From the IMG/VR virus record IMGVR_UViG_3300046009_004793, positions 1 through 64,000 of that record: a stretch of 64,000 bases of DNA. One strand, given 5' to 3'. Shown piece after piece: positions 13,517-63,248 of the stretch (positions are counted from its first letter, which is position 1; the number at the start of each line of letters is the position of its first letter). The stretch is from a virus. The position numbers and the translations under genes are program-made. The notes beneath the pieces were generated by a model, which worked only from the letters and a program-made list of their open reading frames with translations, was not told the origin of the DNA and ran no database searches.

Positions 13517-13519
13517 TAT

Positions 13520-15137: not shown

Positions 15138-15150
15138 TTCATATCACTCC

Positions 15151-15843: not shown

Positions 15844-15844
15844 A

Positions 15845-17155: not shown

Positions 17156-17157
17156 AA

Positions 17158-18695: not shown

Positions 18696-18705
18696 AGTAA
18701 AAATC

Positions 18706-18831
18706 TCATAGTACAAAAATCATATTTTCCCATCTATTTTCTATTAATCTATAACCTAATTTTGTAAATTTCTCAAATAATGCAGTATGCATATTATCAT
18801 TCTCTACGCAAATTATATATTTTTTTGTCAT
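18706..18831 (-). CDS. Small ORF (41 aa), unknown
   Basis: ATG 18831 to TGA 18706 fills the 140-nt space between two glycosyltransferase genes. GAG sits 7 nt before the ATG. Its stop codon overlaps the Shine-Dalgarno of the next gene, a layout typical of coupled phage genes. The product begins M-T-K-K-Y-I-I-C-V-E and contains an amphipathic stretch (F-E-K-F-T-K-L-G-Y-R-L-I-E). It might be a remnant of a longer glycosyltransferase N-terminus or a genuine small protein. No function can be assigned. Confidence 0.5.
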   Translation of the reverse strand: MTKKYIICVENDNMHTALFEKFTKLGYRLIENRWENMIFVL

Positions 18832-18834
18832 ATA

Positions 18835-19548
18835 TTATCTCATTTCGTGGGTATCGACCAGATTACGATCAGGTAAATAACCATCTAATTCATAAACATC
18901 TTTCTCATTGTTTACAATTATTTGTTGACCAACAAAATAAACACCGCCATTATTAACTCCACGGTGTGTTCCGGGTGGAAATGGTTTTTTAGAAAAAAAT
19001 GGATCGTGTTCAATATAACTGAATTTATTATTTTTTATTTTGTGAGTTAAATATGCAGACATAAAATTCTGATCTTGTGTTTTTTCTAAAGACGGATTAT
19101 AGCGTTTAATGGCATTAAACATTTCACCTTTAAATTTATCACACTTAAGTCCAAACATTCCTGCTTGTATAAACCAAGCATGATATGGATGATCTCGCAT
19201 TATATGAATATCTGCATCTGATTTAATCCATTCATCTACTGCTAGTTTTTCTCTAAAAGACACTCTAGAGTCGGCATCTCTAAAAATTGCGCGTTCAACA
19301 TCCACAAAATCAACAGCCAAAAATCTATTCATTGCCGATCTATTATCACCAATAGATTCTATCTGTATTACATTTGTATTTTTTCTAGTTTTAAGTTCTT
19401 TGATTATTTCTTCGGGAACACAGGAATTGCAGAAATAATAACAAACCCATCCCGGATAAACATCTAATGCTAAATCTGCATTATTTATTGCTCCTCTCGT
19501 ATAGAGAGGATTATTGCCCCATAAACTAAAAGAAATCACATTTTTCAT
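18835..19548 (-). CDS. Glycosyltransferase-like protein (237 aa)
   Basis: Begins V-I-S-F-S-L-W-G-N-N-P-L-Y, then A-I-F-R-D-A-D-S-R near 93 supplying a D-x-D-type site, M-R-D-H-P-Y-H-A-W and a C-terminal G-x-H/N-N-G-G pattern. I recognise the general nucleotide-diphospho-sugar transferase look but not a CAZy family. D-Q-N-F near 158 resembles the D-Q-D/D-Q-N element that binds acceptor in GT8/GT34 enzymes. Lies 3 nt after the upstream GT2 gene. Role in glycan assembly is inferred from motif plus context. Confidence 0.65.
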   Translation of the reverse strand: MKNVISFSLWGNNPLYTRGAINNADLALDVYPGWVCYYFCNSCVPEEIIKELKTRKNTNVIQIESIGDNRSAMNRFLAVDFVDVERAIFRDADSRVSFREKLAVDEWIKSDADIHIMRDHPYHAWFIQAGMFGLKCDKFKGEMFNAIKRYNPSLEKTQDQNFMSAYLTHKIKNNKFSYIEHDPFFSKKPFPPGTHRGVNNGGVYFVGQQIIVNNEKDVYELDGYLPDRNLVDTHEMR

Positions 19549-19551
19549 TTT

Positions 19552-20154
19552 TTATTTTTTCATAAATTGTATCGATTCAGATGTTCTATCATCATATCGA
19601 TACAAATGTAGTATCTTATTTATGTGTGTTTCTGATTTTACTTTGGGATACATCAAAAGACACCAAGCAAAATCTTCACCATATGAAGATGCTTCAAGTT
19701 TTGCTTGTTTTGCTATTTCTGATTTCCAGAAACACATATGAAATGGTGGGCGTTTTACATGAGTCATTCCCGGAATATATCTCTCATTCGGATTGTTCAT
19801 GTTAAAATTAACTATAAATTGATTTCCATTTACTATGCAGTGCTGATCAAAACTTATAACATCGGCTGGTTTTTCTTTTATAGTATTAATAATAGTTGAC
19901 ATATAATCATCAGTAATATCATCGTCATCATCCATGAAAGCAATCCATTTACCTCTAGCAGAGTCTAAGAGTGCTTGCCGTTTTTCGCCAATAGTCATAC
20001 TTTTATTATCAATCAGGCAAAGAATTTCAACCTCTGGATAGTTTTTTGTTTGCTCTAACATTTTATTGTATAGGGGTATTAGATATTTTTCAATTCTAGA
20101 TGGTATTGAAAGTATAAGTATACTGACTAAAACGCTGTCTTTATCAGTTGGCAT
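19552..20154 (-). CDS. Family 2 glycosyltransferase (200 aa)
   Basis: Classic short GT2: L-V-S-I-L-I-L-S-I-P-S-R near 8-19, a first acid after the second strand (L-C-L-I-D-N-K), G-E-K-R-Q-A-L-L near 57-64 and W-I-A-F-M-D-D-D-D-D near 70-79. Y-G-E-D-F-A-W-C near 158 is the conserved E-D acceptor motif. The length covers only the catalytic domain. Overlaps the end of the GT10-like gene upstream by 11 nt. Sugar and acceptor unknown. Confidence 0.8.
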   Translation of the reverse strand: MPTDKDSVLVSILILSIPSRIEKYLIPLYNKMLEQTKNYPEVEILCLIDNKSMTIGEKRQALLDSARGKWIAFMDDDDDITDDYMSTIINTIKEKPADVISFDQHCIVNGNQFIVNFNMNNPNERYIPGMTHVKRPPFHMCFWKSEIAKQAKLEASSYGEDFAWCLLMYPKVKSETHINKILHLYRYDDRTSESIQFMKK

Positions 20155-21001
20155 ATTTTATTTCTCCTGCTGCTTTAATAATTCTGTCTACAAAATTCAC
20201 ACAATATTGTTTTGCTTTTTCAAAGTTATAATTAATCTTATCAATATTTTCTTTGTAATATTTTTCTGTATATTCTGTTGTGAGAATTCGTTGAGGATTA
20301 ATCCAATAACTCGTATCAAAAAAATCTGAAATATTTGGACATCCCCAATAAATTGGGATTGTTTTAGTTATTAAACAATCAATTAATTTTTCAGAAAAGT
20401 AATTTAGTTCGTTTGAACTTTCAATTACAACAGAATACATTGAATTAAACAGATGAATTTTGTCATCATTTGGTAATAGTGATTCGCCTGGTATGGGAAA
20501 CCGTGTAGATGAATAAAAATTTAATTTGGCTGGTATGTGTTTTCGGTTATTCCAAATTGTGTGTCTTATTCCGTATCCCAATTTTCCAGATAAAGCCCCA
20601 CATATCATACTAATAGAATTTTCTTTTTGTATTTTTCCAAGATCTTCTGTAAATGTCCCATGTGAATCTGGATGGTGTTTGGATTTGTTAAGCCATGTTG
20701 TACCATATGGAACTAACACTGCATTTTTGCAATTATCTAATATCTTTGGATGTGTTGTTGCAATTTTTGTATAGTGATGTTGATTTGCAATTACATGATC
20801 TGCCTGTTCCACCCAAGCAGAAGTAGTTGGTTCATTACAATTTACAAAAATTTTATGTTTTGAGTCTGAAAAAAAATGAACATCCCCACCGGGTCTTTGA
20901 TTTTTACCAAATCTAGTAAAATGTATTTCGCATGACTCTTTTAGATCAGGTATCTGATCTTCAGAAAACATATAGTCTGCATTAAGAATAATTGGTTTCA
21001 T
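20144..21001 (-). CDS. GT10 (fucosyltransferase-like) glycosyltransferase
   Basis: The C-terminal half carries the GT10 donor-site pattern: V-V-I-E-S-S-N-E, then Y-F-S-E-K-L-I-D-C-L and T-I-P-I-Y-W-G at about 190-215. In GT10 this is the E-N-S / Y-V-T-E-K-L / P-V-Y-x-G series that binds GDP-sugar. The N-terminal half has an acceptor-type Rossmann domain (H-V-I-A-N-Q-H-H). GT-B fold, expected alpha-1,3/1,4 transfer. A second GT10-like gene precedes it, overlapping by 20 nt. Whether the donor is GDP-fucose is unknown; no fucose pathway is seen here. Confidence 0.8.
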   Translation of the reverse strand: MKPIILNADYMFSEDQIPDLKESCEIHFTRFGKNQRPGGDVHFFSDSKHKIFVNCNEPTTSAWVEQADHVIANQHHYTKIATTHPKILDNCKNAVLVPYGTTWLNKSKHHPDSHGTFTEDLGKIQKENSISMICGALSGKLGYGIRHTIWNNRKHIPAKLNFYSSTRFPIPGESLLPNDDKIHLFNSMYSVVIESSNELNYFSEKLIDCLITKTIPIYWGCPNISDFFDTSYWINPQRILTTEYTEKYYKENIDKINYNFEKAKQYCVNFVDRIIKAAGEIKYAN

Positions 21002-21842
21002 TTATTTTATTCCAAAGATAATCATCACTTGATTGTAATTTTTTTATTTTGTCAAAGTTTTCTTCAACGGCATCTAGTTTAGAATAATAAAGTTCTGGTG
21101 TCAATGATTTAATATCAAAAGTTTCATTTAATAAAATTATTCCATTAATGTTAAACAACTCACCAATAGCAGGATTCCCAAGATAAACTGGAATAGTTCC
21201 TGTGGCAAAACAGTCTGTCAGTTTTTCCGTATAATAACCATCATAGAAATCATTCTCCACTACTATATGAAACATATAATCCTTCAACCCAAACATTTTG
21301 CTTTTCCATGGCTGAGTTGGATCTGTTTCAGGAAGTTTAGGAGAACCACAGGCACCACCAAACAAATCTAAATTATCTTTAAATCTATTTGCATATCCAT
21401 GACGAATCATGTGTCCTTTTGTGTATTGTTTATGAGATGCAACCATACTAACTAACTTTATTTTGTCGTATATTGCATATTCCGACTCAGGAATCCACGG
21501 CAAATTACTTCCTGCCGGACAATATTTAAATACTTTAGAAAAAGATACTAAATTTTTATCTGATACAAAAATTGTTTTGAATCGTTTTTCTAGTTTATCA
21601 TAGTTCCAAGATAAAAACTGAGAAAGATTATTTACTACGGATCTGGACTCGCACACCCATCCATATATTTCAGTTATTCCGGGTGGAAGTTGCTCATACT
21701 GCATAATTGTATTATCAATTAATACAAGTTTATCTATATTAGAATACTTAGGTAAAGACCATTCAAAGTTTTTAGGTTTTCTATTTGAACACGATGAACT
21801 ATTCACATCAAAAGGAAATCCATAACCAAAAAGTTTATTCAT
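20982..21842 (-). CDS. GT10-like glycosyltransferase, second copy
   Basis: Same C-terminal series as its neighbour: F-H-I-V-V-E-N-D-F, then Y-Y-T-E-K-L-T-D-C-F and G-T-I-P-V-Y-L-G, here near 188-216. The N-terminal half is quite different (S-C-S-N-R-K-P-K-N-F-E-W), so the two probably differ in acceptor. The adjacent pair looks like an old tandem duplication or two separate acquisitions. Coupled to the upstream gene by ATGA. Confidence 0.75.
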   Translation of the reverse strand: MNKLFGYGFPFDVNSSSCSNRKPKNFEWSLPKYSNIDKLVLIDNTIMQYEQLPPGITEIYGWVCESRSVVNNLSQFLSWNYDKLEKRFKTIFVSDKNLVSFSKVFKYCPAGSNLPWIPESEYAIYDKIKLVSMVASHKQYTKGHMIRHGYANRFKDNLDLFGGACGSPKLPETDPTQPWKSKMFGLKDYMFHIVVENDFYDGYYTEKLTDCFATGTIPVYLGNPAIGELFNINGIILLNETFDIKSLTPELYYSKLDAVEENFDKIKKLQSSDDYLWNKINETNYS

Positions 21843-22504
21843 GTTTTAACTTCCATAAATGAATTGCCTGGTGATTGCCATTCAACCAATTCGTCGTTAT
21901 AACCCATTTTTTTAAGTGCTTCCTTCTTAGAAGGTGCGTCGGAAAGACCCATCATCAATACTGTAGAAGCAGTTGCTTTGCCAGGCCAAGCACAATATTC
22001 TTCTCCTAATATTGCAACTTTTTTCTTTTGTTCAATTAAATACTTATGAGCACAACCAATAAACGTTTCGTGGTCAAACAAATTTCCTTTTGTTCTTTTA
22101 ACAAATTCACACTGATTTATCCATGTTTTAACAAACTCCAAACTTTCATTATTAAAATTAAACCACAGTGGAGATGCTTTAATCTTTACTAAATTATTTG
22201 GTTCGGTCGAAGCAGCACCAAGACTTACTCCAAGATTGGCAAACCCATCAAATGCATTTGGTTGTTTTAATATAAATGTATCAATATCCAACCAAAGGAT
22301 TGGTCTTTTATGTTCCGTGAGTTTTGAGTATATAAATTTTGGTTTTACTAAACAATTATCTTGATAACTGCCTAAAGATTGTATTTGAGTAATTTCAGCA
22401 GGAATTTGTAATCGTTCGCACTCCTCACGAAAACGTGCGGCATGATCGCTATAATAGGTGCTACCATCTACATCACAAAAATAACTTATCACAAGTGTTT
22501 GCAT
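21839..22504 (-). CDS. Nucleotide-diphospho-sugar transferase-like protein (221 aa)
   Basis: First gene of the glycan cassette. I-L-W-L-D-I-D-T-F near 69-77 is a DxD donor site. N-L-F-D-H-E-T-F near 141 and G-E-E-Y-C-A-W-P-G near 167 are the later acid and acceptor segments seen in GT77/GT8-like proteins. No signal peptide. It starts 2 nt after the regA stop, so the whole cassette can be read on regA transcripts. Family placement is approximate. Confidence 0.65.
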   Translation of the reverse strand: MQTLVISYFCDVDGSTYYSDHAARFREECERLQIPAEITQIQSLGSYQDNCLVKPKFIYSKLTEHKRPILWLDIDTFILKQPNAFDGFANLGVSLGAASTEPNNLVKIKASPLWFNFNNESLEFVKTWINQCEFVKRTKGNLFDHETFIGCAHKYLIEQKKKVAILGEEYCAWPGKATASTVLMMGLSDAPSKKEALKKMGYNDELVEWQSPGNSFMEVKT

Positions 22505-48913: not shown

Positions 48914-49720
48914 TTATCCCATCATGAAGTTTATTGGTAGTTCGTATTCAAGTTGAACTTGTTGTTCTATTAGTTCGATTTCCTGCATTGCTTCTTGAAC
49001 AATTTCAGGACCACGAAGAGTTACACCACCCGGAAGTTGAACACCACCAAACTTAGACATATTCATGCCCCATTGTCTTTTTATGAGAGCAGTTAAATAT
49101 TTCTTTAGAAGTCGATCATTGTATATCTCAGTAAATTTGTCTGGGCTTAAATTAACATATGCTTCGATCATCAAATTAGAACCAGCAATTAATTCTTGTT
49201 GCCAATTCATTTCTATATGAAGTTTATTTGTGACTTTACTAAACCGAATTGTCTTCTCTGGTTGAAATAGATCTTGAATTAAATTAATATAACGTTTGGT
49301 GCTGTCATACTGACCAAGACCCATATTTCGACTCGACATCAGATTAGTATTAATACCGAAGTAATCTGTTAAAGCCATTTGATAACGAATATCAAACATT
49401 GAAATATTACTGAAGGGTCCAAATTGAAACACTTTTACTATGGATAAAATGTCTGCTCCGGTTGGACCATCTCCACCAAATCCATTTACAGGACCTAAAG
49501 CATCAGTATCAATATACTGATTGGTTATATCTTGTGCTGTAACTGGATATAGAAAGAATGCTTTTTCAACACCATCAAAGTGTCTCTCTGAGAAATACTG
49601 CAAAGCATCATCTAATCTATCCTCACACTGTTGCCAATCAACGTTGATATCCACAACTGGTGCGCCCAGTTGACGTAAACTATACTCAATTAAAGTTTGT
49701 CTTGAGTTTGGTGCAGCCAT
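48914..49720 (-). CDS. gp13: Neck protein gp13
   Basis: Binds the portal after packaging to accept the tail. L-I-E-Y-S-L-R-Q-L-G-A-P-V-V-D-I-N-V-D near 10-28, D-R-L-D-D-A-L-Q-Y-F near 34-43 and the end motif S-K-F-G-G-V-Q-L-P-G-G-V-T-L near 219-232 match T4-like gp13. 268 aa, T4 309. The first core structural gene after the adhesin block, with a clear CATAAATA late promoter and AAGGAG site. Confidence 0.92.
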   Translation of the reverse strand: MAAPNSRQTLIEYSLRQLGAPVVDINVDWQQCEDRLDDALQYFSERHFDGVEKAFFLYPVTAQDITNQYIDTDALGPVNGFGGDGPTGADILSIVKVFQFGPFSNISMFDIRYQMALTDYFGINTNLMSSRNMGLGQYDSTKRYINLIQDLFQPEKTIRFSKVTNKLHIEMNWQQELIAGSNLMIEAYVNLSPDKFTEIYNDRLLKKYLTALIKRQWGMNMSKFGGVQLPGGVTLRGPEIVQEAMQEIELIEQQVQLEYELPINFMMG

Positions 49721-49756: not shown

Positions 49757-50347
49757 TTACTGCAAGGGTTCTGTGTTGAGTTGTTGCTGTTTTTGTTCAG
49801 CCATTTTTGCTTCGCGTTCTTCCATAGCCTTTTTCATTGCTTCGGGCATTTCTGGAAGAGTGACGGGCAATTTGTTTAAATCCTCAAACGAGATATTTTC
49901 AATGTAATATTTTCTCGTAATTGGAGAAATGGCTTCATCTGGTTTACTTGCTGAATAGTTTGTAAACCCAGGCATGGTAATTGGGCAGTTCAACTTTGGA
50001 TAATCCAATTTACTGTAATCATTACCATTTGCAACCAACCAAGTTCCTTGTCTATCACCGCATCCACAACCACCGCAGTAATATTGTCCTTGTGTCTTAC
50101 TTTCTTTGAGATGTTCGCATGGGGGCAAAACTCCACCCAAATGCTTGTCACCAAAGCAACTCAAAACACGAAGTTGTTTTGTCGCTTTGTTTATCTTTTT
50201 CTCATTTAGACCACGAGAAGTCAAAGACATGGCAAAACTTTGAATCATGCCTATTTTCTTTGAAATTACTGATTTCCCATCTGGGACTGCTACGCTACGA
50301 AACTCAATAGGATTTGGTTTATTAGAACAGGTATTTTCTTCACTCAT
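49757..50347 (-). CDS. Cys-cluster protein of unknown function (196 aa)
   Basis: Central metal-type cluster: C75 or nearby, then C-G-G-C-G-C-G near 91-97 and N-C-P-I-T-M-P-G-F near 120-128. This resembles small phage proteins with a C-x2-C-G-C...C-P-L pattern, probably binding zinc or an iron-sulfur cluster. The C-terminus is helical and Gln-rich. It lies between the Cys-rich adhesins and gp13, and ends 13 nt before the gp13 late promoter. GGAG lies 8 nt before the ATG. Role unknown; might help assemble or oxidise the neighbours. Confidence 0.65.
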   Translation of the reverse strand: MSEENTCSNKPNPIEFRSVAVPDGKSVISKKIGMIQSFAMSLTSRGLNEKKINKATKQLRVLSCFGDKHLGGVLPPCEHLKESKTQGQYYCGGCGCGDRQGTWLVANGNDYSKLDYPKLNCPITMPGFTNYSASKPDEAISPITRKYYIENISFEDLNKLPVTLPEMPEAMKKAMEEREAKMAEQKQQQLNTEPLQ

Positions 50348-50352
50348 AATAA

Positions 50353-52923
50353 TTACTCCAATTCAATTCTTCTTATTAGTCGAACATTTACTTTATCTGT
50401 TCGTGGTACTAAGTATATAGACCCGTAATCTACCTTCTTAAAACTTTGTCCGTACATAAAGGCTTTATCATTAAATATTTGATCATCTATGTTATAGGTT
50501 GTATCTGTATTTACTCTGAAGAATGGGGTAGAAGTTAAGTATACCGCACTATTCATGGATTTAAACACTTCTGGAATAAAGAAACCGTGATTGATTTTTA
50601 AATTAATAAATTCTAATTCATTTTTAGATGGAAGATACCAGCCAGAAAGACGAGAACGGTCTCTTAGGTTCTCCATTGCCTTTCCTTGTATACCGTAATA
50701 AACTTCATTATCACCATAAGTATTCCATAAACCATCATACAGAGATGCAGGAATTGTTTCTAATTGTTCTCTTTTTCCTTTTATGGCTTCTAATTCAAAA
50801 TCAAATGGTGCTACTATAATTGCCCATTTTTTGGCAGTTGTTCCATATCCAACAATACTTGGTTTGTAGTTTACTGCCGGTCCTGTGAATGGTCTTCCAT
50901 TTACAGTTGATCCTTCATAGTTTAGTGGAGAACCAGGCTCAAATATTCCAACATATAACCCATCTTGATAATATGTTAATTCTGAATCTGGTAGAGTATC
51001 CTGTACTTGAACCGATCTTAAAGGAGCATTTCTTTCGCAATTTGCGTCTGTACAATCATCACATGTTTCTAGACCCGGATTTTCAGAACAACATATACCT
51101 CCACTTCTGAATCTTCCATCTAGATTTTGACAATTACCTTGTGTAGTTTGTATGCAAGATCCTTGATCGACACATGTACAACAACTTCCGGGTATTTGAT
51201 TGTTGCATACATCAATATCTGGAACAACAGTTGCTTGACATGAGCCATTGACACAGGACAATGAAGTTACATCTGTTATTGAATATGCTGGTTGATTATT
51301 AAAATCATCAATAGATCCTAGTTTTTCAAATTTATTTTCAAAATCAACAGCAAAACAATAATCGTTTGATGGGTCTAAAGGACCAGCACCTTTTATATTA
51401 CTACAAGAAACTAATTTATATTTCTTAGAGCGCACATATGAATTTGGTATTTCATCGTTTAATGAAACACAAGTCATGATTCCATCTTGTTCTATCCCAC
51501 AGAATGTGTGAACACCGAAAGATGCATTTACATATTCTTTAGGTGGCAAACTTCTAATCATGTCTCGAATTTGTTGTAATTCACTAGATTCATCCATGAA
51601 TGGTGAATAATAATCAAATGTATTATCTAACTTTTGACCAGCAAAACCAATTGTTGAATAGTCTTTATCATAAAAATCAAATCCAATTGGAGCAGAATTA
51701 TGTTGATATAATTTTTTTAATTTTAGAGCAGGAGAATAAGTTTTGTATTGTTCTGTATCTGGGTTGTAAAATCTTCCTTGAATTTTTACATTTGGATTTG
51801 TGGTATTTGTTGATGCCCATGCACTAAATGTTCTTGTAGCAATTAAATCTAAAACTGCACCAAGCACATCCCCAACAGGAGATTCTGAAGAATTTTCGAA
51901 TCTAGAAAAAAATCCAGTAGATGCGTAAAATACACCAGTGTTATTTTCAGTTATACCACCAAAATAACCATCATAATATCTTCGTGGTTCTTCTATTTCA
52001 TTTGTATATGATAAACTTCCCGGGCACACTTTTTTAAGTTTAATGTCTCCGGATTTAGCCAAATTTAGTAAATTTGGTACTTCGTTTTCTGGCCAAAAAA
52101 AGCCAGGAAGTAAATAATTTTGCTCACCAGAGATGTTTTGTGTGTTTTGTATAGTTGCAACATAATGAGTAATTTTGTTTAAAAATTTTCCAGAAAAATA
52201 TTTATCATAAAAATCTTCTTTAGCAGAACATCTTTGTGTTGTGCCTGCTCCATACACCCAACAAAATAAATTTGTACCATTATCACATGAATTTAAAACA
52301 TTTAAATTAGTTTCATTCAATTGACATTCAAGAGAAACCGGAATTGTTCCGCCAACAGACTCATCGCACTTTCTTCCATTATTATAGAAAGTAGAAATAT
52401 ATGGAAATATTGTTTTTTCAGCACATTCTTTTTCGTTGCAAACGTCAGTACACTCCGAAGAAATTGTTCCATCATCTTGAACTTCTGGATGACAACATGC
52501 TTTTTTAGGTCTAAAATCAATAACATTGGATTGTTCTGGTGTTCCAGTTTTACACAGAGCATCTATTTGTGTTGGTGTTTGTGTAGAACTGCAATCATAA
52601 TTAAGAGTCCATAATCCACCAATAGATTCACATTCGCACAATGTTGTATTTTTGACATATGTAGAGGTATCTGGGGGAGTAAACAAAGAACATGCACAAC
52701 AACACCCAGTAGATGCCGGAGTAATTGTATTATTTGGATCACATGCTCCGGACATAAAATAACCATTTAACTGATTGCATTGAGATAATGTTGTATCTAC
52801 AAATTGACCTACAGTATTTGTATCAGCATCAAAAACATAACAACAACCAGTGACATTAGTAGTTTGAATATAACTGCTATAATCTACTATTGTTTGAGAT
52901 CTTGTTCTAAAGTTTATAGACAT
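50353..52923 (-). CDS. Cysteine-rich adhesin-like virion protein (856 aa)
   Basis: Unlike its three larger neighbours it lacks a collagen-like start. Cys-rich modules begin at residue ~27 (G-C-C-Y, then G-C-C-C-A-C, K-A-C-C-H, G-S-C-C-T-C). A long middle domain of ~350 residues is not recognised. The end (G-W-Y-L-P-S-K-N-E-L-E-F near 785 and V-R-L-I-R-R-I-E at the terminus) has the G-W-x-L-P-x-x-x-E-L...R-x-I/R layout of DUF1566/Lcl-type lectin-like domains. Likely receptor-binding. Starts 1 nt after its neighbour's stop. Confidence 0.7.
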   Translation of the reverse strand: MSINFRTRSQTIVDYSSYIQTTNVTGCCYVFDADTNTVGQFVDTTLSQCNQLNGYFMSGACDPNNTITPASTGCCCACSLFTPPDTSTYVKNTTLCECESIGGLWTLNYDCSSTQTPTQIDALCKTGTPEQSNVIDFRPKKACCHPEVQDDGTISSECTDVCNEKECAEKTIFPYISTFYNNGRKCDESVGGTIPVSLECQLNETNLNVLNSCDNGTNLFCWVYGAGTTQRCSAKEDFYDKYFSGKFLNKITHYVATIQNTQNISGEQNYLLPGFFWPENEVPNLLNLAKSGDIKLKKVCPGSLSYTNEIEEPRRYYDGYFGGITENNTGVFYASTGFFSRFENSSESPVGDVLGAVLDLIATRTFSAWASTNTTNPNVKIQGRFYNPDTEQYKTYSPALKLKKLYQHNSAPIGFDFYDKDYSTIGFAGQKLDNTFDYYSPFMDESSELQQIRDMIRSLPPKEYVNASFGVHTFCGIEQDGIMTCVSLNDEIPNSYVRSKKYKLVSCSNIKGAGPLDPSNDYCFAVDFENKFEKLGSIDDFNNQPAYSITDVTSLSCVNGSCQATVVPDIDVCNNQIPGSCCTCVDQGSCIQTTQGNCQNLDGRFRSGGICCSENPGLETCDDCTDANCERNAPLRSVQVQDTLPDSELTYYQDGLYVGIFEPGSPLNYEGSTVNGRPFTGPAVNYKPSIVGYGTTAKKWAIIVAPFDFELEAIKGKREQLETIPASLYDGLWNTYGDNEVYYGIQGKAMENLRDRSRLSGWYLPSKNELEFINLKINHGFFIPEVFKSMNSAVYLTSTPFFRVNTDTTYNIDDQIFNDKAFMYGQSFKKVDYGSIYLVPRTDKVNVRLIRRIELE

Positions 52924-52924
52924 A

Positions 52925-55900
52925 TTAACAACTCTCGTATAAATTGCATTCTGGACATATTATATGTACACATAGTCCTTCATCAAGTTTTACATATTTT
53001 GTTTTTTCACCAGTTTTTATTCTTGTTAATGGTTCAGTTTGACCAACTGTTGATGGTGAAACTATGTAAGCATTTATCCATTGTGCCTCAGTTGGTCCAT
53101 CCTCACATGATTCACTATTGCTACCACCGGAGCCACCACCGGAGCCGCTGCCGCCTCCGCGTCCTCCACTGATAACTGTACCACCACACTCATCCTCCGT
53201 CCATGTTCCATAGAATGAACAAGAGTCGAGGCATGCATCTACACAACAACATACATTCTTACAGTCACATAAAGCTTCAACACCAGCGCCACATGATTTT
53301 TGCCAATATGCACCTTGTATAAAAATAATAGGAACTGCGGTTCTTTCTGCTTGAGAAAGTGATTTTGCATTTGAACCATTTAAATGGGTTGTTTGTGATC
53401 TATTATAAAAAACAGAATATGTTCTATATGCTTCTAAATTATATCGAAGGTTTCTTCCTAAAATTCCCCTTGGTATGCCTCCATATAATTGATCGGTTGT
53501 GCCGTTCCCCGGTGATTGAAGCAATGACTCACAGAAATCATTCAGAGGATCTCCTGTCGTAGATGAGATGCCAGCAGCCCAGGCTGGGGGAAATGCATCT
53601 TGAGAAAAACCAATGTTGTCCCTAATTGGATCTTGATACTCTCCGTTTTCATCGGTATCAGTAGTACATTTTAATTTTCCTCCAGTACCAGGCACCTCAA
53701 ACCACAATTCTCCAGTTGAATAAAGAAAATCCCCATGAAGTAACGTTTGTTTTCTAGGATAAAATAAAGTAACACTGGTGCTCGATATGCCTTCACCATC
53801 AAATGTAGAGCATAGTGAGGTATACCCGTCTTCACACAATCTATTAATAGGATCACCATAAAATCCGTGTCTGTAGTAATTCACAAAAGTATTAACCCTA
53901 AATGTCCATAAAGGATCGCTTGTTCCTGCTTCTGGAATATCATTCGATCCTGGATTATTAAAATCAAAAATATCATTACAGTTGTTCAAAAAACCACAAT
54001 TGTCTGCTATTGAAGACCAATATGACCATTGTATTCCAGCGCCCTTATAACTTTTGCTATTACACAACATATATGGATCATATTGTAAATAACCTTCTTG
54101 AACACATCCCGCTCCAAATAGTTTTTTACCACGGAATGGGCTATCTATCCATTCTGTCCAAAAAAATTCTGGCGTTTGATCCTCGAATACATAATCACCA
54201 AGAAGTCTATTATAATAAGTATTTCTACTATTAAAATTCTGTATTTGTAATAACTCTAAAGGCGACGGATCTGGATTAGGAGAATTGACAGTGGCATTTA
54301 TGCTTTCTGGTACTCCCATAGACTCTTTAATTCCACGAACCATATTTTTAACAACTTTCAATTTACCAGACGCCGCTCCGTTTTCAATATCAATATAATC
54401 TGTATGCAACAAATCCATAAAATATTTTAATTCACCATTAAACGTTGCTAAACACATGTCAGTTATTGTTTTGTAATTTAACAAACGAAGATTGTGTGTA
54501 ACCCTAGCATGTCTGTTACTACCACAAACCCGTCTGTCAAATTTATAAGTTATTCTTCCCCACAGTGGAGGAAATGGTGCTAATATTCCATTTTCAATTT
54601 CTTCTTGATATGGTTCAAGCTTTTCAAATGTTGTTTGAAAATTTGATGGTGGTTGACTTAGATTAGTAAAACCGTACTCAATCGGAGGAATTGGATCACA
54701 TAGTTTGCAGTCTGTTTGTTGATCTGGTGTATAACCAAATCGCGTTAAACATCTTGCTCGTGTTATAGAAGGATTACTAGTTTTATTATATGATCCAACA
54801 TAATAACATTTAAATTTACCGCGAACTCCTAGTACATCAGCAGATGTTCTAGTATCAATCTTTAACTTATCTACTGGATAAGATGGACTATTAGTATTAT
54901 CTGGCCATTCTTCTATAAAGTATGGAATTTGAACTGGTGTAAATAGATCTGTTTCTGAATCTAATTGAATTTGTTTTACTCCAGTTTTAGTATTAATAGT
55001 AACATCATCGATTTGTTTACTGTTTAATTTATTTGCAATATTTTCATCTATTAATGCTACTGCTCTGTATGGTGCTTGAGATTGTTTAATAAATTTTTCT
55101 TTCCATACACTCTGATCAGCAACTAATTCTGCAACTCTTTTACTACCAATTGATTCTAAGTATTCTCCTAGAGTAGAAATACCAGCATCTATATCATCTG
55201 GTGTTGGATTGGTTATGGATAAATTATCCACACCAGGAACCAGGTCTGGTTGAATTCGCAACCATTGTCCAGGATCGTTTGGTGCAATATTTGGGTTACG
55301 GAATCTTCCGTCATATAGTCCTTGATATTTAATATAACCACCCATCATTCCACCATTTGGTTCTAGAACAATTGGACTCAATAATGAATCAGTGATACCA
55401 TTATTTTCAATATGAGCAAAGCACCAGAAACATGCAACAGTTTGTTCTTCCCCAGAACCACCACAATCATTAGAACAATCACATGAGTCGTTAGGATGTG
55501 TTTGTGGGCACGTTTGTGTTATTGGAACTTGAGTAGAAAGACATTGACATATTTCGTTAGTACATGGTTTAAAGCATGTTCTTAAATTACAGTCGTAATT
55601 GGTGCAATTTCCGTCATTAAATATTCCTTGGCCGGGAACTTGACCACACCCACCGCATAATTGTTTATCTATACACTGACCGTCTTGTTGGCATTTAGAG
55701 CATTCTACGGGACTGCAAAAACCAACACATTGTTCCTGAGTTGTAAAATAGTTACTACTACCAATCGTAGAATATTCCTCACAAGTTTCACCTGGTCTTA
55801 AATTAACAGAAACTTGCTGACAATTGCATTGATTATTTTCTGGAAGAGTATTGCATCTGTAACAAGTGGATGGGACGGTATTGCAGTCACATTTAGTTGT

Positions 55901-57481
55901 ATCACAGTTTGTATTTTTACCCATGTAAATACCATTTAGTGTGGTATTGCATTCATATGGTGTTTGTACCTCTTGACAAGAATATCCATCTTCTACTGGA
56001 ATACAGCAAGCACCCGGAGCAGATACTGAATCGCAGCATTTTGCTTCAGAGCAACTGTTAACATTTTTTACTGTTTTTCCACCAAGATATTTACAATATT
56101 CTTCTGTTAATTGCCCAAGGCACTCTCCATCTTTACAGCAATAAACTGATGTATCTTTGCAGTTATTATAGCATAGACCAGATTCAACAAGTACACTTCC
56201 ATCTGAATTATATGTTGTATAATTTTGTGCATCGTTGTCTGGAAAAATACCAACATCACCACATGTTATTCCTGAAATAAATTGACCATTAATTGCTTGA
56301 CAAAAACTTGGATCAATATCAGATATACATCTTCCTTCTGAACAGCAAACACCATCATAAGTTTTTTGTGCAGTATCAGTTATGCATTTATTTTTTGTAC
56401 AAGGAACCATAGGTTCAAATGTACCATCTCTCTCATCACAATACGTTTGAGTTACATAATCTTCACAGTGTTTTTCATCATCCACATCAAAATAGCAGCA
56501 TGATCCTCTTAAGCCTGGATTTATGGCTTCATTAACTCCAAACCCTCTTGCTGTAAAATGTGCTCTCCATTTATCATCTTGGTTAGTTCTCCACATGTGA
56601 AGAATATTCATGCCTGGATAGAATATGGGTTTGCTTGCCTCATCAAAAACCACATCTGATGGAAAATTCCAAACATCTTCACCATCAATAAACAATGTAA
56701 CAGACATTACTTGACCGTCTGGGATTGCATCGTATTTGAATCCCTTAATACCAATTGGAGTTATTAACTGATAAACTGTTGCCCTTGAAACATCTAAAGT
56801 AATTCCTTCTGGGCTGCCCTGGTCAAAGAAAGTATCTGTAGTGACAATTCTTTCTCCACGCTCTATTGGACCCAAGGTAAATAAAGTGTCTCGAATATCA
56901 GTTACTACATTTCTTCCGCTAGATTCTGTACCAAAATTAATATATCCATAATCATTATCACCAACTCTGATTGATGAATTTGCTCTTTGTGGAGCAAGAT
57001 CAGTAGACATTACATAGTTTCTTTGTTTAAAATAAACTATTCTATTGTTTTCTGTAGAAGCAGATATACCTCCACCAATATTTTGATCTAAGATAGTAAA
57101 CTTTAGATTGTCAAAAGACGAATAAGTGACACCCAAAATACCGCCAGATCTAAAGTTATAAAATTCTAAAGTTATTCCACCACATACGCCTTTTAGAACT
57201 GGGATTCCTGTTCCAATTGTTGTTGCAGTAATTCCCGCATAAATTCCAGTAGCACCTTTAAAAATGCCAGGAGAAACAACTGTTCCATCAGATAAAGTAA
57301 ACTCCACTTGTCCGGTTGGAGTTACATTTACTAAAGTAATGTAATTTGAATTTATTCCAGTTGATCCAGTGGGACCGGGAACTGTTTGGTTTGCTCCTGT
57401 GGGTCCGGTTGGACCAATAGATCCTGCTGCACCTAAACCAGTACTTGGAAATATAGAACTATGACCAATATTATTTGACAT
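52925..57481 (-). CDS. Giant cysteine-rich virion protein (1518 aa)
   Basis: Longest gene in the window. Residues ~20-45 are collagen-like (G-P-T-G-P-T-G, P-G-P-T-G-S-T-G), then a beta region to ~325. From ~328 follow at least four repeats of the form G-x-C-C-x-x-G-x-C...C-x-x-x-x-G-x-[FY]...C...C, then a denser Cys region to ~690. A large unrecognised region with aromatic and charged residues runs to ~1400. The end has C-C-C-V-D-A-C-L-D-S-C, a Gly/Ser-rich linker near 1445-1460 and a final C-P-E-C...C. Many disulfides imply an extracellular virion surface role. No DUF1566-like end is visible here. Confidence 0.75.
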   Translation of the reverse strand: MSNNIGHSSIFPSTGLGAAGSIGPTGPTGANQTVPGPTGSTGINSNYITLVNVTPTGQVEFTLSDGTVVSPGIFKGATGIYAGITATTIGTGIPVLKGVCGGITLEFYNFRSGGILGVTYSSFDNLKFTILDQNIGGGISASTENNRIVYFKQRNYVMSTDLAPQRANSSIRVGDNDYGYINFGTESSGRNVVTDIRDTLFTLGPIERGERIVTTDTFFDQGSPEGITLDVSRATVYQLITPIGIKGFKYDAIPDGQVMSVTLFIDGEDVWNFPSDVVFDEASKPIFYPGMNILHMWRTNQDDKWRAHFTARGFGVNEAINPGLRGSCCYFDVDDEKHCEDYVTQTYCDERDGTFEPMVPCTKNKCITDTAQKTYDGVCCSEGRCISDIDPSFCQAINGQFISGITCGDVGIFPDNDAQNYTTYNSDGSVLVESGLCYNNCKDTSVYCCKDGECLGQLTEEYCKYLGGKTVKNVNSCSEAKCCDSVSAPGACCIPVEDGYSCQEVQTPYECNTTLNGIYMGKNTNCDTTKCDCNTVPSTCYRCNTLPENNQCNCQQVSVNLRPGETCEEYSTIGSSNYFTTQEQCVGFCSPVECSKCQQDGQCIDKQLCGGCGQVPGQGIFNDGNCTNYDCNLRTCFKPCTNEICQCLSTQVPITQTCPQTHPNDSCDCSNDCGGSGEEQTVACFWCFAHIENNGITDSLLSPIVLEPNGGMMGGYIKYQGLYDGRFRNPNIAPNDPGQWLRIQPDLVPGVDNLSITNPTPDDIDAGISTLGEYLESIGSKRVAELVADQSVWKEKFIKQSQAPYRAVALIDENIANKLNSKQIDDVTINTKTGVKQIQLDSETDLFTPVQIPYFIEEWPDNTNSPSYPVDKLKIDTRTSADVLGVRGKFKCYYVGSYNKTSNPSITRARCLTRFGYTPDQQTDCKLCDPIPPIEYGFTNLSQPPSNFQTTFEKLEPYQEEIENGILAPFPPLWGRITYKFDRRVCGSNRHARVTHNLRLLNYKTITDMCLATFNGELKYFMDLLHTDYIDIENGAASGKLKVVKNMVRGIKESMGVPESINATVNSPNPDPSPLELLQIQNFNSRNTYYNRLLGDYVFEDQTPEFFWTEWIDSPFRGKKLFGAGCVQEGYLQYDPYMLCNSKSYKGAGIQWSYWSSIADNCGFLNNCNDIFDFNNPGSNDIPEAGTSDPLWTFRVNTFVNYYRHGFYGDPINRLCEDGYTSLCSTFDGEGISSTSVTLFYPRKQTLLHGDFLYSTGELWFEVPGTGGKLKCTTDTDENGEYQDPIRDNIGFSQDAFPPAWAAGISSTTGDPLNDFCESLLQSPGNGTTDQLYGGIPRGILGRNLRYNLEAYRTYSVFYNRSQTTHLNGSNAKSLSQAERTAVPIIFIQGAYWQKSCGAGVEALCDCKNVCCCVDACLDSCSFYGTWTEDECGGTVISGGRGGGSGSGGGSGGSNSESCEDGPTEAQWINAYIVSPSTVGQTEPLTRIKTGEKTKYVKLDEGLCVHIICPECNLYESC

Positions 57482-57492
57482 TATTTACTTTC

Positions 57493-60441
57493 TTATCTAC
57501 AGGAGGAACATGTATTCATCGTTTTAAAACTATATTCAAATTGATTTTCATAATTTTTAGTTTTAAAGTATATAGGAATCATTCTACATGCCCTTAATTT
57601 AGCCTGTTGAGAAGATTTTAACAATGAAACCATTTTTCCAGTTGAGAAATCCTGAGTATAGGCTCGGTGTGCCTGTGTTGTTTTATATTTTTTCCAAGTA
57701 TCTAACAGTCCGTCTGGTGAAGACAGAGGATCTTCTAATGAAAAATTATAGTTTTCATAATTTTTTACACCGAAAGAACCAGATTCTGCCGATTTAATTT
57801 CAATGACTTTTCCGCCAGTAGTAGAAGACCAATATTTATTTTGATTTGATATTGTTTTCCAAGAAGAACTATTTGAATTATAAATTATTCCTTGATTGAT
57901 TGCATCTAAGTTGTGATACATCATGTTTAGTTCTAAAGCACTTGGTATGTACCAATCAGAATAACCGTTATACATCTGTTTATTTTTAGAACTAATTTGA
58001 TATAAAGCCGTTGTTTGATTGTTTACGGCATACCACATTTCTTTATACTTTTCTTTGAAGTATGTTTCGTTTGTTGTGATTAAATTTTCATCAATTGCTG
58101 ATTGCCAATAATTTGCTTTGCTATGTTTAAATCTTAACATAGCAAGAGGATCTATGGTTTTAGGGGTTCCATCGATAATATAATTGTTTCGTATGAACCA
58201 AGTATTTCTTTCGATTGTGGTTTCATCAAATAGTCTGGTATTTAATAACCCATCAAATACTGTTGTTCCATAGGGTGTCAATACATTATTTTGCCATAAA
58301 CTGTCTGTGTAATTTTTCATGTAACTTGGTACACTGAAACCGGAAACAGACATACTCATACCAAACGACAATGTATCACCAAAATCTTCTGGAGCAACAA
58401 CAAGAACCCATGCATTTGGTATATTTTCGCCGTGAATGTGTTTTGCAAATTGTTTGTATGCTAATATAGAATTAAAACCATATTTTTTGTTTGTTCCACC
58501 ACCATCGTTGCAAGATTTACTATCTTCAGTGAAGCAAACATCACTTAGTCTATTGTAGAATGTTAGTTTATACTTATCTGGATATCCAGAAAGGGATTTA
58601 ATATCCTTTATTAATATTTTTCCGCTGCTGTCGCCTAAGTTTTTAGAAGTTACATACCTAGAAGGAGAAAAATTAGAGCAGTTACAATTTAATCTTGAAT
58701 TAAACACACCATTTACTGCAATATAATTTTTTATTCCAGTGCCTTTAGCATTTTCTATTTCTGATATAACTTCGCCTCTTGCAAAATAACCAGAAGTATC
58801 AAAACCGGATGGTGGAGGATAGCCAACAAATCCTGCGACGATTCCTCCTTCAAAATAATCTCCAATTTGTAAACTATTTGTTATTTCAATATTTGCATCC
58901 GTTAAAACTCTAGTTGAAGCAATTCTATTTTCTAGCGTATCTGTACAGCAAGATGAATTGGCGCAAACACTTGTTGGTCCTTGATAAATGCCACCTTGTT
59001 CCATACATTCTTTTGGTGTTAAGTTATCAATGCATTCTGTTTTTCCAAAACAGCAAGCACCATAAATGCCATCAATGCAACAATTTCTTTCTTCACATGG
59101 AACTTCTGCGTAAATCCCGTTTAATCCCCTACAAATATCTTGAGATGCGTCGCTTAAAGGCAAACTATAACACGTTCCACTTACGCAGCACGATGCATCA
59201 TTATCTGAAACAGTACAAGTATCCGGGCATCCACCTTTTATGTTTAGTTCTGAGCATCTTATATTTTGGAAAAATGTTCCAAAGACCTTATTACAAACTT
59301 CTTTATTGGTTTCTATACAAATTCCATTTACACAACAAACACCACCAGAATAACAATCTCCTGTTAAATATCTTTCGTTACATGATTTAAAACTAAAGTT
59401 TCCTTTTATATTTTCACAAAATGCTTTATTAACGTAATCAATACAAGTTCTGCTAACAATTGAGCCTGTTCCTTCTGGATCATTTGTGCAGTAACAGCAA
59501 GAACCAATTATTGAAGAAGAATATGTTTGATTGGAATATGTTATTCCTTTTCCAATCATGTCTATTTGAATAGGACCAGTTAGTGCAACACCAATAAATT
59601 CGGGGGTATCAATAAAAGTAATTCCTTCTACTCTAAATGACATTTTAGGATAAAGATTACCATCTTCATCTTTTACTGTTATAAAAATTCCCTGATCTGT
59701 TCTATTAAATATTCCAGATGAATTTGAAGTTAATGCGTATGATACGTCAACTTGGTTTAATACTTCATTGACTTTATCGTTTTCAACATTTATCCAGTTT
59801 AAATTGCCTGTATAACCAACTTTAAACTGAGTTGTGTAGTCTTGATTTATTTTAAAAGTAAAATTATCTAAAGTTAGTCCAAGTAAACTTCCAGAAACCG
59901 GAGATGTAATATCTCTATTATATCTTGTTGTTGAATCTCTTGTAGGAACTGCGGAAAGATCACCGGGACCAGTTCCTGAATCTAAGTATAACAACCCACC
60001 AGTTCTTCCAAATATAGAACTGGGTGCTGAGGGACTTTCGATATAAAAAGAATCAAAACTAATTCCGGCAGTTGCTTCTCCTTCTACCTTTAATGATTTA
60101 AACAATAAATGGTATGGATTATTCCCGGAAAAACCAGCAAATAAACTAAAGTGTGTTGAGTTTCCAGTTTCTTGTATTTTTAAATTTGGATTTGCTACAC
60201 GAAGTATTGATCCACTGGGTGCAGTAACTCCAAAAGAAACAAATGTGTTATTTGTATATGTTATACCAAAGACATAATTTTCTATAGACGAAATAACATA
60301 TGAGGCACCACTTGCGCCTGTTGGTCCAGTTATTGAAAAACCAGTAATACCAATAGGACCAGTTGGTCCTGTAGCACCACGAATATAAGTTACACCAGAG
60401 ACTACTAAGTTACTTGGTATTGTCGAAGAATAAAAGGGCAT
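57493..60441 (-). CDS. Cysteine-rich collagen-like adhesin (982 aa)
   Basis: Collagen-like start at ~20-45 (G-A-T-G-P-T-G-P-I-G), then a beta domain to ~315. Four Cys repeats lie at ~315-500 (G-S-C-C-Y-C, G-V-C-C-V-N-G-x-C, A-S-C-C-V-S-G-x-C, G-A-C-C-F-G). The C-terminal half ends with D-W-Y-I-P-S-A-L-E-L-N-M-M near 840, Y-W-S-S-T-T-G-G near 885 and L-R-A-C-R-M-I-P-I near 950. That combination is the DUF1566/Lcl-type fold, used by surface adhesins. Start overlaps the upstream gene by TAATG. Probably a host-binding fibre. Confidence 0.75.
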   Translation of the reverse strand: MPFYSSTIPSNLVVSGVTYIRGATGPTGPIGITGFSITGPTGASGASYVISSIENYVFGITYTNNTFVSFGVTAPSGSILRVANPNLKIQETGNSTHFSLFAGFSGNNPYHLLFKSLKVEGEATAGISFDSFYIESPSAPSSIFGRTGGLLYLDSGTGPGDLSAVPTRDSTTRYNRDITSPVSGSLLGLTLDNFTFKINQDYTTQFKVGYTGNLNWINVENDKVNEVLNQVDVSYALTSNSSGIFNRTDQGIFITVKDEDGNLYPKMSFRVEGITFIDTPEFIGVALTGPIQIDMIGKGITYSNQTYSSSIIGSCCYCTNDPEGTGSIVSRTCIDYVNKAFCENIKGNFSFKSCNERYLTGDCYSGGVCCVNGICIETNKEVCNKVFGTFFQNIRCSELNIKGGCPDTCTVSDNDASCCVSGTCYSLPLSDASQDICRGLNGIYAEVPCEERNCCIDGIYGACCFGKTECIDNLTPKECMEQGGIYQGPTSVCANSSCCTDTLENRIASTRVLTDANIEITNSLQIGDYFEGGIVAGFVGYPPPSGFDTSGYFARGEVISEIENAKGTGIKNYIAVNGVFNSRLNCNCSNFSPSRYVTSKNLGDSSGKILIKDIKSLSGYPDKYKLTFYNRLSDVCFTEDSKSCNDGGGTNKKYGFNSILAYKQFAKHIHGENIPNAWVLVVAPEDFGDTLSFGMSMSVSGFSVPSYMKNYTDSLWQNNVLTPYGTTVFDGLLNTRLFDETTIERNTWFIRNNYIIDGTPKTIDPLAMLRFKHSKANYWQSAIDENLITTNETYFKEKYKEMWYAVNNQTTALYQISSKNKQMYNGYSDWYIPSALELNMMYHNLDAINQGIIYNSNSSSWKTISNQNKYWSSTTGGKVIEIKSAESGSFGVKNYENYNFSLEDPLSSPDGLLDTWKKYKTTQAHRAYTQDFSTGKMVSLLKSSQQAKLRACRMIPIYFKTKNYENQFEYSFKTMNTCSSCR

Positions 60442-63248
60442 TATAGAATATTCCTTAGTAAGTCAGGTACTTTCCATAATTTATATGAATCACTTGTTGA
60501 ATCTGGATATAATCCATCACATCGCATTGCTCGAATTGGTCTAATTTTTAATTCTTCTGTTCTATTTTCTTTTTTAACCTTATAGTTTTCTATTTGTCCA
60601 GAAGAATCAAAATACATTCCCCAAGCAACAGAACCATGTTCTGGTTTTCCTGATGTATAAATTCCTTCTCCGGTGATACCAGTGTCGAATGAACCAGTCG
60701 AAGACCAGTGCCATCCATATAAAGGAATACCATTGTTTGCAAGAAGATATTGATTCACGTTAAAACCATAATATTTATTTGTTGAATCATTTACCGTATT
60801 AGCCGCAATAAATGCTAGTTCATCGTGACTAGGAATGTACCAATCGCTTAGTTGCTCTGGATTTGCGGTTAAACCATGAGAGTTTTGATAATCATTATTA
60901 TCAAATAGTTTTAGCGCCCACAAAGAGTTCATTGTTATACCGGCGGCAAATTCATCATATGTGAAAATAGAACTACTATTAATCTTTAAGTAATTTGCAT
61001 TATCTGCACATAACATTCGAATAGTATTGTAGAGTCCCCAATTTCTGTGCCATAATCCATTTGAAGTTTTTATATTTCTTGCAAAAAGTCTAGCAATTGG
61101 ATCTGTACCATTTTTTCTAGTAGAATAGCAAGTTTGGAAAGTGTTTGTTTTTATGTTATCTAAACTCTCTCCAGTTATTCCATAAAATCCTTCACCATAT
61201 TGTAAATATTCTTTTTCATAAGTTTTATCTAAGAATGTAAAATCACTATAAGAATTATAAATTGGAGACAACATTGGACCCCATGCAATACCACTGCCAT
61301 ACCATGCAAATTCTTCTTTGAATACTTCCTCTTGAGTTGGATTTACTCCATTTAGATCTCTGTCTACCGATGCAGGGTAAAGAGAAACTATTATGTAATA
61401 TGAGTCTGTATCTTTTCTTCTTAACGCGGCACATGTTTCTCCGGTAAATCCATATCCGATGTAATCACACTCGCTTTGATAATAATGACTCGTTGTTTCT
61501 CCACCAAACATAAAATCTGCGGTGCTTCCGTGCCGCGAGAATGCATGTCTTGCTCCTAATATTTTTGATTTGTTTGGACTATACACACCAACCACCATTC
61601 CACCACCAAACAAATCTCCAGGTTTTAGTGGTGTCTCTAAAAATCCTCCACAACGTAAAGATGAATTACATGTAATACCGGAGCAAGATGAATTTGTTCC
61701 AAAATAGTAACCACCATTTTCGAAACAAGTTTCTGCTGTAGAATTTGTGCATGTTCCTGTTGAAGTGCAACATGCACCGGTTCCAGTTGAACACACAGGA
61801 TCTTTAGAATTTGCAACACATGAAATTGCTTTTCCTAAGAAATTTCCGCCGCTTAAAATACAATCAATTTGTGTCTTAGAGGTGCAATTTCCTTTTCCAT
61901 CACAACATGCCCCTCTATCTTCAAAACATTCAGAACAATCCACGGTTGAACATATAGTTTCAATTCCATTAAAAACTGCTTGTGTTGAATTATTATTCAA
62001 AGCCAAACAATCATCTACTGATATATTTTCTAAGCAGTATGTGTTTACTTTTCCATCTATAGTATTTTTTACGCAGCAAGAACCATTTTGTTGAGAACAC
62101 AAATACGATCCAGTTATTCCACAAGTAGTTCCTGCTCCCGCAAAGAAGCCATCACAGAATTCGTATGTTGTATATGTGCAACCACTAACGCCAGTGCAGC
62201 AAGCACCTGTCATTCCATTATAACTTTGTAATATTCTTTGTGCTTGTAATGGTAATTGCTGATTTAAATCTGCACAGAAAAAATCATCCACATTACTATT
62301 TTTTCCAAAAATATAACCATAATATTGTGAATTTATATTAACAAAGTGTATTACTATATTTTGATTTTGTAATGGGCATGGAATTTTATTAAAAGGAAAC
62401 ACGACAGGTATACCAGAACCGTATTCAAATTCTGGAGGTATAAAAGTAGTTAACCAGTTTCCGTTTTGAAGATGCAACGAAAAAGAATTAATTATACTGC
62501 TGTCTTGTATACTAATAGTATTAACACCTTCGAAAGACTGATTACGGAAATTTTCTAAATCAGCAGAAAGTATTTTAGATCTACTAGATCTTTCTGATGT
62601 GGTTGGGTATATAAACCAAAGAGGTGTTTGAGTAATATTAAATGGTTTATCATTAGTACCATAAATTGGAGATTCTGTTTTTTCAAATACATTTGCTTTA
62701 TTGATTTTAATAGACTGTGCTAGTTTTCCGTATTTTGCAGAACCTAATGTTGCACCCACTAAATTTCCACCACCATCAGTTGCCAAAATATCTGTAAGTT
62801 CACCATAAAGATGGGTATATGTTCCATCATAGCGATCAACATTAACCAAAATTTCTCTGTTTGAATTTTGATTCGTAAGTTCTATTGAAGAACGAATTCC
62901 AGTAGTTCCCTCTAATTTTCTTATTACTACTGTTTGTTGTGATGGAATGCTACTTTTAAAAATGTAACCAGTTCCTGTTGAACCAGTTTTTCCATCCATT
63001 AATATGGAAGTATTTCCAGTTATGCCTTTAAATAAACCAGTTGCAGCAAAAGTAATTCCATTTTGAAATGTGCTTATGAGCGTATAACCAGATAAAGTTA
63101 TGCTAGCAAATCTTAAAAATGCAGTTGCACCAGTTGGCCCTGCTAGATCATTTCCTCTTGGGCCCTGAGGACCAGTGCTTCCGGTTGCACCATAAACCGT
63201 GATGCCTTTTATGGATTTAAACTGGCTACTACCACGAATTGATGGCAT
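60441..63248 (-). CDS. Cysteine-rich collagen-like adhesin (935 aa)
   Basis: Same plan as its neighbour: triplets at ~19-42 (G-S-T-G-P-Q-G-P-R-G), beta domain with T-G-L-F-K-G-I-T-G near 72-80, four Cys repeats at ~348-535 (the last two are G-A-C-C-D-G-K-G-N-C and G-A-C-C-T-S-T-G-T-C), then a lectin-like half. D-W-Y-I-P-S-H-D-E-L near 805, H-W-S-S-T-G-S near 850 and I-R-P-I-R-A-M-R-C near 905 match the DUF1566-like pattern. AGGAA precedes the ATG. I infer receptor or surface-glycan binding. Confidence 0.75.
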   Translation of the reverse strand: MPSIRGSSQFKSIKGITVYGATGSTGPQGPRGNDLAGPTGATAFLRFASITLSGYTLISTFQNGITFAATGLFKGITGNTSILMDGKTGSTGTGYIFKSSIPSQQTVVIRKLEGTTGIRSSIELTNQNSNREILVNVDRYDGTYTHLYGELTDILATDGGGNLVGATLGSAKYGKLAQSIKINKANVFEKTESPIYGTNDKPFNITQTPLWFIYPTTSERSSRSKILSADLENFRNQSFEGVNTISIQDSSIINSFSLHLQNGNWLTTFIPPEFEYGSGIPVVFPFNKIPCPLQNQNIVIHFVNINSQYYGYIFGKNSNVDDFFCADLNQQLPLQAQRILQSYNGMTGACCTGVSGCTYTTYEFCDGFFAGAGTTCGITGSYLCSQQNGSCCVKNTIDGKVNTYCLENISVDDCLALNNNSTQAVFNGIETICSTVDCSECFEDRGACCDGKGNCTSKTQIDCILSGGNFLGKAISCVANSKDPVCSTGTGACCTSTGTCTNSTAETCFENGGYYFGTNSSCSGITCNSSLRCGGFLETPLKPGDLFGGGMVVGVYSPNKSKILGARHAFSRHGSTADFMFGGETTSHYYQSECDYIGYGFTGETCAALRRKDTDSYYIIVSLYPASVDRDLNGVNPTQEEVFKEEFAWYGSGIAWGPMLSPIYNSYSDFTFLDKTYEKEYLQYGEGFYGITGESLDNIKTNTFQTCYSTRKNGTDPIARLFARNIKTSNGLWHRNWGLYNTIRMLCADNANYLKINSSSIFTYDEFAAGITMNSLWALKLFDNNDYQNSHGLTANPEQLSDWYIPSHDELAFIAANTVNDSTNKYYGFNVNQYLLANNGIPLYGWHWSSTGSFDTGITGEGIYTSGKPEHGSVAWGMYFDSSGQIENYKVKKENRTEELKIRPIRAMRCDGLYPDSTSDSYKLWKVPDLLRNIL

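Follow-up and report, generated by a model that had tools for sequence, protein, structure and literature searches.

The window analysed here is a 64,000-nucleotide stretch of a 64,081-bp virus record, which is that of a T4-like virus known from environmental DNA only. Four adjacent open reading frames, in transcription order P0004, P0003, P0002 and P0001, lie on the minus strand at 50353-63248, where each meets the next with a 1-base overlap or a gap of no more than 11 bases. P0001 to P0004 encode 856, 1518, 982 and 935 residues respectively, or 4,291 in total. The T4 late promoter consensus was matched twice in the window against eight matches expected, with none near the four genes; sigma-70-like sites were fewer than in shuffled sequences, and terminator-like sites were not clearly above shuffles.

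P0004 (60441..63248, 935 aa) starts with a short N-terminal tag, followed by a collagen-like stretch of Gly-X-Y triplets (aa 20-42, 63123..63191), a globular domain, four cysteine units within a Cys zone (aa 345-535, 61644..62216) and a DUF1566/Lcl-like C-terminal domain (aa 536-912, 60513..61643). P0003 (57493..60441, 982 aa) has the same layout, with its collagen-like stretch at aa 22-48 (60298..60378), its Cys zone at aa 313-500 (58942..59505) and an extended DUF1566-like domain at aa 527-960 (57562..58863). P0002 (52925..57481, 1518 aa) also has the tag, collagen and globular domain, followed by a long Cys zone (aa 326-690, 55412..56506) and a variable C-terminal part (aa 691-1518, 52928..55411). 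P0001 (50353..52923, 856 aa) begins with MSINFRTRS, has two Cys zones, the N-terminal one at aa 26-235 (52219..52848), and ends in a DUF1566-like domain (aa 631-856, 50356..51033). All of these features are on the minus strand, as are the two genes that follow, which encode a 196-residue protein (c196, 49757..50347) and a gp13-like head-tail adaptor (48914..49720; PHROG 211, 1.6e-36). The adaptor serves to anchor the slot and is not counted among the fibre genes.

The collagen-like starts of P0004, P0003 and P0002 consist of four to five uninterrupted Gly-X-Y triplets within the first 50 residues, and P0001 has no such triplets. Across relatives the runs are mostly 4-12 triplets long. Within the first 16 residues, 64 of the 72 distinct collagen-bearing ORFs have a GSS-x-I-type SS motif, which may be a peptide that docks the protein on the virion. 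The globular domain is the least conserved part of both P0004 (42%) and P0003 (50%).

Cysteine makes up 3.5-5.3% of each of the four proteins (33, 35, 80 and 40 residues in P0004, P0003, P0002 and P0001), and is concentrated in zones with approximately 9-16 Cys per 100 residues and 21 CC pairs. The genes neighbouring the block in relatives have roughly 0-1.9% Cys, with one exception. The cysteines are strongly conserved. In P0003, 30 of 35 are invariant across 14 homologues, compared to 9% of the other residues, and within the Cys zone all 28 are invariant; nine of these homologues are about 30% identical. In P0004, six orthologues preserve 30 of the 33 Cys of the whole protein. Paired loss of cysteines was considered as a guide to disulfide connectivity, but the losses were too few.

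An earlier note on this DNA had described four adjacent genes with three collagen-like starts, three DUF1566-like ends and a shared cysteine repeat. Its coordinates agree exactly with the ORFs, the collagen triplets are present in P0002, P0003 and P0004, and matches to Lcl_C (DUF1566) occur in P0001, P0003 and P0004, although they are weak in the window. The repeat needs some qualification: six-Cys units are indeed present, but they are degenerate, and of the approximately 15 recognised by eye only some fit the full consensus that had been proposed.

The same note described the repeat as one that is common in very large proteins of Planctomycetes and other aquatic bacteria. A genome collection was scanned with a fixed-spacing DNA pattern for G[AS]CC-x3-G-x-C-x7-C-x3-GG, which gave at least 118 stretches; among the matches listed, 64 of 80 rows were named Planctomycetota, Planctomycetia or Phycisphaer- (counted by hand). 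Positions beyond the pattern, which were therefore unselected, agree closely between genomes and viruses (aromatic residue 94 and 92%, Gly 92 and 89%, Cys 93 and 88%, respectively). A profile search beyond this virus had been suggested, and a profile built from the window's own units matches 123 of 1,192 ORFs from the genome loci at E<1e-3, these loci being preselected by the pattern. The same ORFs gave no match when reversed, or when shuffled with Cys positions kept. The bacterial units are 35-44% identical to a two-unit stretch of P0004, and most of the matching bacterial ORFs are several hundred to approximately 3,000 residues long. Taken together, the pattern, the agreement at unselected positions and the profile indicate that the note was right in substance. 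The bacterial proteins are often very large and mostly from Planctomycetota, although the distribution within that phylum is patchy and not universal. In whole genomes the profile was found in 12 of 61 from one class and in 4 of 79 from the phylum to which it belongs, with the query genome counted in both. No unit was found in 81 genomes of an actinobacterial phylum sample. All of these groups were identified from the title of the centre locus. A pattern match in Streptomyces is probably due to chance, since its genome gave no profile match. No Pfam family for the six-Cys repeat was found in our Pfam searches.

The phage units have the same Cys spacing as the bacterial repeat, with its aromatic-x-Gly and fifth Cys. 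The proteins that carry them are nevertheless different. A signal-like hydrophobic start, as scored by a hydropathy measure rather than a signal-peptide predictor, is present in 78% of 94 bacterial unit-bearing ORFs (background 23%) and in none of 18 phage ORFs. As the phage ORFs do not share this mark of an exported protein, it is the module that is common to both, and not the type of protein. The phage DUF1566 domains were not found in the bacterial ORFs of the fetched loci. The units, at 37 residues, are too short to give the direction or time of transfer.

The three C-terminal Pfam matches to Lcl_C have E values of 0.01, 5.5e-4 and 0.083, all below the Pfam cut-off, while an orthologue of P0003 matches at 5.8e-6. 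When the P0003 profile was searched against PDB sequences, the best match was 8q4e (E 0.049); the P0001 profile gave no match in the PDB. AlphaFold2 produced an unusable model of full-length P0003 (pLDDT 39). A model of P0004 residues 446-935 had pLDDT 66 and pTM 0.69, and in a PDB fold search its first match among 350,542 chains was again 8q4e, the C-terminal domain of Lcl, with a probability of 0.89, a TM (target) of 0.44 and an E value of 0.09, which is not significant alone. C-type lectins rank after Lcl in this search, and the top viral fold match is a DUF1566 phage protein. Each of these lines is weak, and all of them agree. The DUF1566 domains are among the better-conserved parts of the proteins (63-67%). 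P0002 gave no DUF1566 match in Pfam. No part of the block changes faster than its C-terminal region, at 30-36% identity among orthologues compared to 50-63% before it. This part (52928-55411) also shrinks in relatives.

Downstream of the block are genes for the gp13 head-tail adaptor, gp14 head closure protein, gp15 sheath stabiliser and terminase. Among phage records the terminase is best matched by those of cyanomyophages, at 59% identity. Baseplate wedge families lie upstream, as seen in an overlapping 88.6-kb contig. The equivalent slot in T4 holds gp9-gp10-gp11-gp12-wac, and in cyanophage S-ShM2 a VrlC protein and a 6.7-kb structural gene with a YadA domain. In a pelagimyophage study (PMC7029224), the region from VrlC to the neck gene is named the host recognition cluster, and collagen repeats are described among the putative receptor-binding proteins of the structural operon that holds it. 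By comparison with T4 and S-ShM2, our four genes are in the position of this cluster, between baseplate genes and neck genes.

No match to any of P0001-P0004 was found in 50,697 phage records, and the block, which has no counterpart in cultured phage records, is conserved among uncultivated relatives. Near relatives, with terminases 87-89% identical, keep all four genes in the same order at 43-62% identity to the window proteins. Farther relatives (approximately 67% terminase identity) have two still larger Cys-rich proteins, of which one has 2,124 residues, 8.9% Cys and 16 GxCC motifs, and the other has nine collagen triplets. In records at about 60% terminase identity the giant genes are Cys-poor instead. 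Alignment searches found 14 viral loci for P0004 and 42 for P0003, nearly all with tandem paralogues and a common modular layout. Close to the C-terminus of the 2,124-residue homologue (L091:4778-11152) there is a weak match to a leucine-rich repeat, from which the fibre tip seems to be exchangeable.

The small protein c196, encoded between P0001 and gp13, had no match in Pfam, the PDB or phage records. Its six cysteines (64, 77, 91, 94, 96 and 121) do not vary among the aligned members, and it is linked to the Cys-rich fibres. Among loci anchored on the terminase in which 1.5 kb or more precedes gp13, Cys-rich genes occur in 20 of 20 with c196 and in 0 of 10 without it, a hand count that is confounded by relatedness. 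A search of viral contigs anchored on c196 itself (the best 80 of 200 relatives) showed a Cys-rich upstream neighbour in 67 of 72 testable loci; of the five exceptions, three seem to be truncated ORFs. The protein may have an accessory function, be it in folding, in the loading of metal or in anchoring.

As to the mechanism and ALTERNATIVES, the evidence is best accounted for if the four proteins are host-recognition fibres that are attached to the virion and probably trimeric. Their genes occupy the host-recognition slot, flanked by baseplate genes and by the neck gene gp13. Every protein with collagen triplets is probably docked on the virion by its short GSS-x-I-type tag, and the short collagen helix would act as a trimerisation stretch. 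After the globular domain, the chain of compact six-Cys modules may form a stable spacer. At the tips of P0004, P0003 and P0001, the DUF1566 domain (Lcl-type, C-type-lectin-like) would grip a glycan on the host surface; P0002 has its fast-changing end in place of DUF1566, and this may carry specificity. We regard this whole reading, of structural fibres of a T4-like phage with a docking tag, trimeric stalk, Cys-module spacer and glycan-gripping tips, as likely. Points against it are that the DUF1566 matches in the window are below the Pfam cut-off and the fold match is not significant alone, that the DUF1566 domains are conserved, unlike typical receptor-binding tips, and that the collagen stretches are short.

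The state of the cysteines is less certain. Disulfides are the usual state in exported proteins, and the bacterial homologues look exported, so the bacterial context favours disulfide knots; in addition, no pattern of His or Asp ligands was noticed in the unit. On the other hand, the phage proteins are made without a signal-like N-terminus, and c196 with its six invariant Cys is linked to the fibres, which gives room for the modules to be zinc- or iron-sulphur-binding spacers, with c196 as a metal chaperone or structural partner. Metal binding is a serious possibility, though on balance a doubtful one. It concerns the Cys modules only, and is compatible with the proteins being fibres. Since there is no signal peptide, the modules are probably reduced or metal-bound inside the cell, with disulfides locking them after release, possibly with the help of c196; the note's "disulfide-rich" is an inference. 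No member of the glutaredoxin family was found in seven records, and thus no such thiol carrier was seen. A further and rather speculative suggestion is that c196 and the Cys-rich fibres form a dedicated system for building cysteine-locked fibres in a reducing cytoplasm, in which c196 would hold the Cys modules, load them with metal or oxidise them while the fibres are assembled. If this is true, these virions would have a disulfide- or metal-stabilised fibre built from modules that otherwise occur in exported proteins.

Other functions for the proteins are less likely than host recognition. The block ends near gp13, which is the site of wac in T4, and with the conservation of the DUF1566 domains this could indicate virion fibres of the whisker or neck type, which would not bind the host but help to build or support other fibres. 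We consider this unlikely: four giant paralogues with differing tips, and the variable end of P0002, are better suited to recognition, and Lcl-type domains bind glycans (PMC11162425). The resemblance in architecture to the surface adhesin Lcl, together with phage-encoded surface changes known for this group (PMC7029224), might instead suggest adhesins that the infected cell exports and displays on its surface, acting in aggregation or superinfection exclusion outside the virion; but the proteins have no signal-like N-terminus, their genes are inside a structural run and they have an N-terminal tag in common, which makes this very improbable. Finally, DUF1566 is the commonest domain among the variable proteins of diversity-generating retroelements in human microbiomes (PMC4159848), but the idea that the tips are targets of such an element is set aside as hardly credible, because no reverse transcriptase (PF00078, RVT_1) was found in seven records that may be incomplete, namely six relatives and the longer record that overlaps the window, and because the DUF1566 parts are conserved.

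Apart from the bacterial repeat proteins, the four proteins resemble three known systems in part. Like the host recognition cluster fibres of pelagimyophages and cyanomyophages, they are encoded by large structural genes in the same slot before the neck genes of a T4-like phage, and collagen repeats are among the domains reported for that cluster; the passages of PMC7029224 consulted report no Cys-rich repeats or DUF1566, and the word "cysteine" is absent from the paper. Lcl of Legionella (PMC11162425; PDB 8q4e), a trimeric protein, has a collagen stalk whose DUF1566 tip binds sulphated glycosaminoglycans, and is the best PDB match by both sequence profile and fold. P0003 and P0004 have the same order of collagen and C-terminal DUF1566, the latter significant in the P0003 orthologue and weak in the window. 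The phage proteins differ in having an added globular domain and Cys zones, short collagen and no export signal, and the domain similarity is weak; in view of the missing export signal we do not claim them as bacterial surface adhesins. In the EPcl side tail fibres of E. coli O157:H7 prophages (PMC3368898), too, a collagen helix joins an attachment part at the N-terminus to a trimer domain at the C-terminus, but these are PfN and PfC domains in EPcl, in contrast to the tag, Cys zones and DUF1566 of the window proteins, in which PfN (PF08400, Phage_tail_N) and PfC (PF06820, Phage_fiber_C) gave no Pfam match at E<=1.

Collagen-stalked phage fibres (PMC3368898) and the host recognition cluster are already known. 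As far as our searches reach, what is new is that a collagen fibre combines Cys repeats of the Planctomycetota type and tips of DUF1566, together with the N-terminal tag and c196. A Planctomycetota Cys-repeat family, unrecognised by Pfam here, is thereby tied to the probable adsorption fibres of widespread uncultivated T4-like phages, and a small conserved partner protein, c196, is named. The folding of Cys-rich phage fibres without export, and the use of DUF1566 as a glycan-binding virion tip, are made testable.

Elsewhere in the window, approximately 17 kb of glycan-biosynthesis genes (5286-22504) lie on the same strand. They include NeuB, GDP-mannose dehydratase and epimerases, a DegT aminotransferase, glycosyltransferases including family 10, a weak sulfotransferase match and a TPP enzyme. 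Beside them, at 2404-4734, is another collagen protein of 776 residues (PF01391, 6.4e-31). The products of the glycan-biosynthesis genes could alter the surface of the host, or they could attach glycans to Thr-rich collagen stalks.
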